DNA from: Millisia brevis NBRC 105863
GTDB taxonomy: Bacteria; Actinomycetota; Actinomycetes; Mycobacteriales; Mycobacteriaceae
Assembly (NCBI RefSeq): GCF_001552615.1
Contig: NZ_BCRN01000011.1
Location: 1-64,000 of the forward strand
DNA length: 64,000 nucleotides
Direction: 5' to 3'
Shown here: positions 68 to 1,972 of the stretch, in pieces
Numbering within the stretch: position 1 is the first letter of the stretch
Layout of the letters: each line of letters begins with the position of its first letter
Program-made: the position numbers and the translations under genes
The notes under the pieces: generated by a model
What the model saw: only the letters and a program-made list of their open reading frames with translations
What the model was told of the DNA's origin: nothing
Databases searched by the model: none

Positions 68-141
68 TGGCCCCAGTCGGGCTCGAACCGACACTGGGCG
101 GATTCTAAGTCCGCTGCCTCTGCCAATTGGGCTATGGGGGC
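68..141 (-). pseudogene. Degenerate tRNA-Leu-like copy (anticodon UAG)
   Basis: On the minus strand this 74-nt segment folds as a class I tRNA and is nearly identical to the intact tRNA at 1509-1582. It differs in three ways that matter. The anticodon loop reads CTTAGAA, so the anticodon is UAG (codon CUA) instead of UAA. Acceptor pair 2-71 is C-C, a mismatch. The bases after the discriminator A are CCG, so the encoded CCA is lost. It lies next to a truncated copy of the ppx 3' end, as the intact tRNA lies next to the real ppx. I infer a decaying duplicate, although the anticodon change would still give a Leu codon, so residual function is not excluded. Confidence 0.6.
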
Positions 142-528
142 GCACCGGCCGGAGCCGGTGACGGCGCGATCATCCCACGATCGACAGGGCGATGCCGTCG
201 AGGATGTCGTGTTCGCTGACGGTCAGACCGGTGACGAGGGATTCCTCGGCGATGGCGGTGGCCAGGGTCGCGGTGATCAGCGATCCGGCGCCGATGACGT
301 CGACGCGGCCGGGGTGCATCGGGCCGAGGCCGGCGCGTTCCGCACGGGTCATGCCGAGGAGACGGGCACAGATGGCGTCGATCTGTTCGAAGGATAAGTG
401 CGACAGGTGGATGCGCTCGCTGTCGTACTTCGGCAGGTCGAGTGCCAGGGCGGCGATGGTCGTGACGGTCCCCGCGACACCCACCCAGGTACGCGCATCC
501 TTGACCGGCACGGACGCCGGCGCGGGGC
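68..528. repeat. Left copy of tRNA/ppx-3' direct repeat
   Basis: This segment matches 1509-1972: the tRNA followed by the 3' end of ppx. From about 164 to 335 I count one mismatch against the right copy. From 335 to about 510 roughly one base in six differs, and beyond that the match fades. The left edge of similarity is the tRNA 3' end. The repeats bracket about 1 kb carrying one foreign-looking gene, the geometry of an insertion beside a tRNA. Confidence 0.75.
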
Positions 529-535
529 AAACCGT
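170..535 (-). pseudogene. Truncated 3' fragment of ppx/gppA
   Basis: The minus strand encodes about 120 C-terminal residues of an exopolyphosphatase/GppA protein, including KDARTWVGVAGT, ALALDLP and the ending LDGIALSIVG. These match the intact protein encoded at 1614-2564. The actin-like N-terminal half with the phosphate-binding loops is absent. Upstream of about 535 the open frame continues to 685 but no longer resembles ppx. I infer a non-functional remnant. Its divergence from the resident gene suggests either an old duplicate or a fragment from a related species. Confidence 0.75.
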
Positions 536-705
536 AAAGAAGTTGCCCCGGACAAGTCGACAGACGACAGGCACCAATCGAATCCCCGTCATCAGCGTTG
601 ATCCGCCCGTGCTCGGACGAGTAGGTGCCATCGACGGCCGAATCCATTTGCCGCGAAATGAATGATTCGGCTGAATGATCAACAATCGAGTGTCATTCTA
701 CACTT

Positions 706-1284
706 GTGGGAAACACGACGTTGCCGGGCATATTTTGCATCGAGAGCGACTGGGTGATCTCGATGGAGAGCAAACAGAGCGTCGAGCCTGCACTTCAGGC
801 CCTCGAGAGAGCAGGCTACATCCGGTTGATCAGAAGAAGCGCGAACACCGCCGCCGAGCTGGAACTGTACCTGGACCGTTGGTTCGAGTACCGTCTGCGA
901 TCGTTCACGTTGGCCTACCTCGGCTTCCATGGAACAGCAAGGACACTCCACCTCCGGGATCAAGAGCTGAACCTGCCCCACCTCGCCGGCCTCATCCATG
1001 GCAGAGCCGAAGGTAAGGTCCTTCATTTCGGATCATGCCGAGCCATGGCAGGCGATGAACAGGAACTGCAACAGTTCTGTCGTGCCACAGGAGCTGCTGC
1101 GATCACCGGCTACACGAAGAACATCGAGTGGTTGGAATCGTCCGCGTTTGAGCTACTGCTGCTTCCGGAGCTCATGGACGCCGTCCGAATGAAATCGGCC
1201 CATGACCGCATAGTTCGCAGGTATCCAGATCTTGCCGAACGCCTCGGATTCCGTATGTCGCATGCAACCTGGACCTCACCGTAG
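706..1284 (+). CDS. Caspase/CHAT-like protein (DUF6642-type)
   Basis: This 192-aa protein starts LPGIFCIESDW after six residues, a beginning I associate with the DUF6642 family. A hydrophobic strand ends in YLGFHG (His75-Gly76) and a second ends in HFGSC (Cys111). That His-Gly/Cys spacing is the catalytic-dyad layout of clan CD peptidases (caspase, CHAT). GYTKNIEWLESSAFELLLL follows, then an Arg-rich tail. The GTG at 706 is used because the conserved PGIF segment lies upstream of the next ATG (757); no Shine-Dalgarno is visible, so it may be leaderless. AGA codons and lower GC than the neighbours suggest transfer. It stands alone between the duplicated tRNA/ppx segments. Family name is from memory; peptidase activity is inference. 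Confidence 0.7.
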   Translation: MGNTTLPGIFCIESDWVISMESKQSVEPALQALERAGYIRLIRRSANTAAELELYLDRWFEYRLRSFTLAYLGFHGTARTLHLRDQELNLPHLAGLIHGRAEGKVLHFGSCRAMAGDEQELQQFCRATGAAAITGYTKNIEWLESSAFELLLLPELMDAVRMKSAHDRIVRRYPDLAERLGFRMSHATWTSP

Positions 1285-1505
1285 CAGCAGAAACGTCGTT
1301 GGATCGACAGCTGTCAGCAGGCACCCGACGGCGTGCGTATCTCAATATCCAGTTCGACTCAGCCCATCCAAGAGTGACTGAACGGTTCGATACCGTCCGT
1401 TCCGTGTACCGCCGTTCGGAATACGTCGGCGGTAAAGTCCGACAGCCATGCGATTGACCACTCGAATCATCTACGTTCTCAGCAACGAAATCGGCCAACC
1501 GTAAT
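1285..1505. other. Gene-free spacer with weak hairpin
   Basis: No convincing coding sequence. An inverted repeat with 8-bp arms (1407-1414 and 1427-1434, TACCGCCG/CGGCGGTA, 12-nt loop) could end transcripts of the caspase-like gene or of the tRNA, but it has no T-run. Confidence 0.35.
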
Positions 1506-1582
1506 TGGTGCCCCCAGTCGGGCTCGAACCGACACTGGGCGGATTTTAAGTCCGCTGCCTCTGCCAATTGGGCTATGGGGGC
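1506..1582 (-). tRNA. tRNA-Leu (UAA), class I fold, CCA encoded
   Basis: The minus strand gives acceptor GCCCCCA paired perfectly with TGGGGGC, anticodon stem GCGGA/TCCGC with loop CTTAAAA (anticodon UAA), a short variable region CCAGT, T-arm GTCGG-TTCGAGC-CCGAC, discriminator A (1509) and encoded CCA (1506-1508). The anticodon reads UUA, so the call is leucine. Bacterial tRNA-Leu normally has a long class II variable arm, which is missing here, so amino-acid identity is less certain than the fold. I recall a short UAA tRNA near ppx in Mycobacterium but cannot verify it. It is upstream of nothing on its own strand and follows the ppx stop codon. Confidence 0.75.
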
Positions 1583-1972
1583 CCACCGGCCGCCTGCCGG
1601 TTTTACGGCGCGATCATCCCACGATCGACAGGGCGATGCCGTCGAGGATGTCGTGTTCGCTGACGGTCAGACCGGTGACGAGGGATTCCTCGGCGATGGC
1701 GGTGGCCAGGGTGGCGGTGATCAGCGATCCGGCGCCGATGACGTCGACGCGGCCGGGGTGCATCGGGCCGAGGCCGGCGCGTTCGGCGCGGGTCATACCG
1801 AGCAGGCGGGCGCAGATCGCGTCGATCTGTTCGAACGAGAACGTCGACAGGTGGATGCGGTCACGGTCGTACGCGGGCAGGTCCAGAGCGAGGGCGGCGA
1901 GGGTGGTCATGGTGCCGGCGACGCCGACCCAGGTGCGGGCCTGCTTGACCGGCACGGTCGCCAGCGCCGGGG
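1509..1972. repeat. Right copy of tRNA/ppx-3' direct repeat
   Basis: Intact counterpart of 68-528. It contains the complete tRNA and the authentic end of ppx. See the left copy for the identity gradient. Confidence 0.75.

Follow-up and report, generated by a model that had tools for sequence, protein, structure and literature searches.

The window analysed here, a 64,000-nt stretch of contig C11 of Millisia brevis NBRC 105863, opens with a duplicated tRNA/ppx junction that flanks a single gene (positions 706–1284, + strand). The gene is accessory and was probably gained by horizontal transfer. It codes for a protein of the Pfam family DUF6642 (PF20347), for which we predict a minimal caspase-fold (clan CD) cysteine peptidase on the strength of the family match, a conserved catalytic dyad and AlphaFold and Foldseek analyses. 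The full interpretation, in which this minimal peptidase is the cargo of a genomic island and a latent protease effector of defence, has in our view an even chance of being correct.

The preliminary description of this DNA had proposed an imperfect direct repeat made of a tRNA and the 3' end of ppx, and the repeat is real. The tRNA parts (66–151 and 1507–1592) are 97% identical and the ppx parts (161–535 and 1605–1980) are about 90% identical. The left copy comprises a degenerate tRNA-Leu with the anticodon UAG (66–141, − strand), called by ARAGORN and scoring 51.1 bits in Rfam with an extra mismatch, and a truncated 3'-end fragment of a second ppx (161–535, − strand), recognised by comparison with the resident gene. 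The right copy consists of an intact tRNA-Leu(UAA) (1506–1582, − strand; ARAGORN and Rfam), whose 3' part forms an attachment-like core, followed by the resident full-length ppx (1614–2570, − strand), an exopolyphosphatase-family gene identified from the list of open reading frames and its matches in relatives. The two copies flank a foreign, low-GC insert of 970 bp (536–1505, no strand assigned), as first described, but their tRNAs are not equivalent. In the right tRNA the acceptor stem pairs perfectly and the CCA is encoded; the left has a C-C mismatch at acceptor pair 2:71 and lacks the encoded CCA. DNA of the tRNA and/or ppx was matched in 58 of the 61 relatives searched, and the locus tRNA has the anticodon UAA in every relative where it was called. 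Judged by its sequence, the left copy of the tRNA has degenerated and its anticodon has shifted from UAA to UAG. It is redundant because the same genome carries a separate class II tRNA-Leu(UAG) on contig C3. A match to the Rfam family Plastid-ycf2 at both tRNAs was rejected as an antisense tRNA cross-match below the gathering score. The insert sits downstream (3') of the functional tRNA, which is still adjacent to the resident ppx, and no inverted repeats were found at the insert ends.

Codon-by-codon comparison of the 3' ends revealed that the left ppx fragment is a mosaic relative to the resident gene. The two copies differ at 1 of 168 nt over the last 56 codons and at 40 of 192 nt (21%) over the next, distal 64 codons, where 27 differences fall at third positions (p = 1e-5). 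Across the two copies, third codon positions hold 28 of 38 differences (p = 4e-7). Relatives are about 30% different from the resident ppx over its last 32 codons, so the near-identity of the two copies at this end is not general conservation. At the sequence level, the pattern indicates a foreign source for the distal segment of this fragment, a ppx shaped by selection in a different genome. The mosaic is best explained by homologous recombination, through a single crossover or conversion, that would have joined the foreign ppx DNA to the resident end. Thus, incoming DNA with a diverged tRNA/ppx junction may have recombined with the resident junction and produced the duplication. Neither a straightforward tandem duplication nor a repeat simply generated by an integrase fits the mosaic well. 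The preliminary description had likened the repeat to those of integrative elements and remarked on the missing integrase. Indeed, we found no integrase gene in the insert, but the presence of the foreign, mosaic ppx segment means that the repeat itself does not mark a boundary made by an integrase. A weak 27-aa hint of an integrase remnant (1456–1536) is largely tRNA sequence and was not accepted.

Simple tandem duplication followed by decay was rejected on the codon-position bias of the differences. The wider alternative, that the junction is a decayed in-place duplication or an assembly artefact and that the island reading of the locus is wrong, seems to us very unlikely. Contig C11 ends at window base 1, which hides the true left boundary and cuts off the left part of the island, and the proximity of the left copy to this end (65 nt) speaks for the alternative. 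So does a tract of at least 108 nt identical in both copies, where a mis-join could arise. Yet the third-position bias fits a ppx selected elsewhere rather than decay, the divergence between the copies jumps abruptly along the gene, and a relative, Rhodococcus sp. BP22, independently carries an island with a homologue at the corresponding tRNA.

The composition of the insert sets it apart from the surrounding chromosome. Its GC content is 56.5% versus 69.8% for the whole window, and all 610 of the 966-nt stretches sampled elsewhere in the window were richer in GC than the stretch compared (540–1505), the poorest having 60.5%. The deviating codon use noted at the outset was also borne out: the GC content at third codon positions (GC3) is 0.68 in the DUF6642 reading frame and 0.89 in ppx and eno. 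No promoter-like sites were found between 500 and 1620; two terminator-like sites in the same interval were not clearly above chance.

The closest homologue of the window protein (72% identical) is in Rhodococcus sp. BP22, at the site that corresponds to the tRNA-Leu/ppx junction, in agreement with the idea of a tRNA-adjacent hotspot. The BP22 tRNA-Leu(UAA)/ppx locus (C31:166975–168171) shares its contig with a 38-nt copy of the tRNA 3' end (C31:146687–146724). The approximately 20 kb between them contain the homologue (at 155921), McrBC, an intact tyrosine recombinase, an IS3-type transposase and, at the tRNA, an integrase C-terminus. Two stretches of this island (L091:2427–7051 and L038:3581–6827, both from G242:C31) show the McrBC pair, a GIY-YIG gene and the integrase C-terminus abutting the tRNA. 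The DUF6642 gene is thus very probably island cargo. BP22 makes a strong case for the island reading by analogy, and the picture at the window locus itself is incomplete. The 3' end of tRNA-Leu(UAA) is probably an island site used repeatedly in this family of relatives of Rhodococcus, which would make the tRNA-Leu(UAA)/ppx site worth mining for islands.

Two further loci display related arrangements. In genome G015, the corresponding tRNA-Leu(UAA) is split into pieces about 45 kb apart (L092:1881–1929 and L093:7529–7754), and the intervening island supplied a replacement tRNA-Leu(UAA), which lies on the opposite strand. In the window's own genome, 42 nt of the tRNA-Leu 3' end recur on contig C4, 847–888 nt from its end. 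In this region (G000:C4:1–900, L006), a PIN_12 gene (PF16289, 3e-13) adjoins the 42-nt copy and the contig end resembles an IS3-type terminus. It is plausible that contigs C4 and C11 adjoin; no synteny of the C4 flank was found in relatives.

The 706–1284 reading frame has a GTG start and encodes 192 amino acids, of which residues 9–184 match DUF6642 (E = 8e-23; 81.4 bits versus a curated cut-off of 27). All 13 members of our alignment A1 match the same family. His75 and Cys111, in that order, are invariant in 17 of 17 aligned homologues, confirming the residues and numbering initially proposed for the dyad. C11, E13, W16, W59, G76 and G135 are also invariant in the 17 aligned sequences; a homologue from Desulforamulus putei lacks the N-terminal strand bearing C11, E13 and W16. 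A LexA DNA-binding match to the product (E 0.035) fell below the Pfam cut-off and was discarded. Changes relative to the BP22 homologue number 42, 26 and 108 at codon positions 1, 2 and 3, respectively, and this concentration at third positions is what a selected protein would show. The broken pieces around the gene (the degenerate tRNA and the truncated ppx) would suit a decayed, non-functional remnant. However, the same third-position bias, the full-length domain match and the retention of every catalytic and core residue make such decay most improbable.

DUF6642 genes are sparsely distributed. Within the host's bacterial family, 14 of 401 genomes carry one, as do 4 of 396 genomes of its phylum (both counts including the window's own genome), always as a single copy. 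The gene is not tied to ppx and is not a fixed resident between the tRNA and ppx, contrary to one of the conditions named at the outset as refuting the idea. One homologue is on a plasmid (Brevibacterium), and none was found in the phage records searched or in IMG/VR contigs. No conserved neighbour, partner, sensor or operon was found across the DUF6642 loci examined. The lack of a fixed partner is unusual for a defence effector.

Structural modelling assigns the product a caspase/CHAT-like (clan CD) fold, a prediction in which we have high confidence. The AlphaFold model of the window protein (pLDDT 73, pTM 0.74) is of moderate confidence, as is that of the Desulforamulus homologue, both having been built from 3-row alignments. 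All 50 of the 50 matches listed by Foldseek against the PDB are caspases (best E 6.7e-6, probability 1.00, TM 0.57), at sequence identities of about 8–14%, in line with the caspase-like structure anticipated in the preliminary description. The model of the Desulforamulus homologue matches Csx29/TPR-CHAT, SAVED-CHAT, legumain and caspase-7 as well as DdvA, a transmembrane anti-sigma factor. In clan CD peptidases, the catalytic His is at the C-terminal end of β3 and the Cys at that of β4 (PMC4357240). The window model places both accordingly, with β3 (residues 69–73) followed by H75 and β4 (105–108) by C111. A profile search of the PDB gave the active-site segments of legumain (HGS and EAC) as the best, sub-significant match (E 0.04). 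In both MALT1 and TbMCA2, the S1 pocket is lined by acidic residues on α1 (PMC4357240). By analogy, the invariant Glu13 after β1 hints that the enzyme favours basic residues at P1, as metacaspases and paracaspases do. Among viral structures, the best match to the DUF6642 model was an uncharacterised 320-aa protein of Myoviridae sp. ctWaE18 (BFVD A0A8S5MXG5; E 1.2e-7, TM 0.70).

The neighbourhoods of the homologues are rich in defence genes, which fits the initial impression of an uncharacterised defence module. We used PADLOC to compare the neighbourhoods of 16 homologues (genes up to about 4.8 kb away) with 16 control regions of the same genomes. The families matched numbered 70 near the homologues versus 9 in the controls, and specific defence systems, known or candidate, were attributed at a minimum of 6 of 16 homologue loci versus 0 of 16 controls (Fisher p = 0.009), counts that are approximate because genes were called with a simple composition-based script and systems attributed by hand. 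The systems are Dnd (L075), GmrSD/type IV (L071), type IV restriction with PDC-S11 (L081), PDC-S11 (L074), PDC-M55C (L076) and a NERD-helicase (L078). Outside this set, McrBC is immediately upstream of the Desulforamulus DUF6642 gene, and an abortive-infection gene is found near the copy on the Brevibacterium plasmid. The window protein had no match among PADLOC models at E up to 10, and no defence gene was recognised among the window's own chromosomal genes that border the insert. Taken on its own, a defence role for the DUF6642 product is as probable as its absence.

The same caspase-fold peptidase could instead be a narrow processing or regulatory protease, acting for example on an anti-sigma factor or maturing one island protein, with no part in defence or cell death. 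We consider this doubtful. The resemblance to DdvA, the lack of a fixed defence partner and the 10 of 16 loci without an attributed defence gene all speak for it, but a processing enzyme would normally be expected alongside a fixed substrate gene, none of which is common to the loci, and the over-representation of defence genes nearby also speaks against it. Less likely still is an addiction or competition module, in which the protease would serve the stability of the island or antagonism rather than phage defence. A patchy, island-borne, single-copy gene is compatible with such a module, as is the PIN-domain gene that adjoins the att-like copy on C4. Against it, no conserved antitoxin- or immunity-like gene accompanies the homologues, and the PIN gene is on another contig, whose linkage to C11 is no more than plausible.

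Under the defence interpretation, the product would act as a minimal single-domain peptidase with His75 and Cys111 at the ends of β3 and β4. It may be kept latent until a phage- or stress-derived signal switches it on, possibly via co-resident restriction or defence systems. The active protease would then cleave host or phage proteins and stop growth, leading to abortive infection. We infer the activity, trigger, substrates and defence phenotype in this scheme. To our knowledge, the known bacterial caspase-like defence proteins have a sensor or target that is fused to them or encoded in the neighbourhood. More tentatively, and with the odds against it, DUF6642 could represent a hitherto undescribed class of bacterial caspases, single-domain proteins that work alone, sensing infection and killing the cell with no dedicated sensor or partner gene, as add-on effectors to the restriction and modification systems of the island (McrBC, GmrSD, Dnd, type IV). 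If so, a lone caspase-fold enzyme of about 190 residues beside many unrelated defence systems would be a minimal effector of this kind and an easy test case for the switch-on and substrates of bacterial caspases. It would also offer a hypothesis of function for a Pfam family that has none.

The window protein does not differ from DUF6642, which it matches over its full length and to which Pfam assigns no function; no paper using this name was found in the open-access literature searched. The caspases, metacaspases and paracaspases (C14) and legumain (C13) share its strand order and the positions of His after β3 and Cys after β4. Unlike the C14 members, it has no match to the Pfam Peptidase_C14 caspase domain, even at E 10, and is distant in sequence from its PDB matches. 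The CHAT proteases (TPR-CHAT/Csx29 of Craspase and SAVED-CHAT) also have the clan CD fold, with TM values of up to 0.60 for the Desulforamulus homologue. However, the window protein is a single domain without TPR, SAVED or CRISPR partner and does not match Pfam CHAT (PF12770), to which one homologue has a weak match (E 0.04). In the Canu caspase-nuclease defence system (CanABC), a caspase-fold protease is found near other defence genes and transposases (PMC12799240), as is DUF6642. Yet neither a nuclease downstream nor a second partner gene recurs at the DUF6642 loci examined, and the 192-aa protein is all peptidase domain, with no room for an Ig-like domain.
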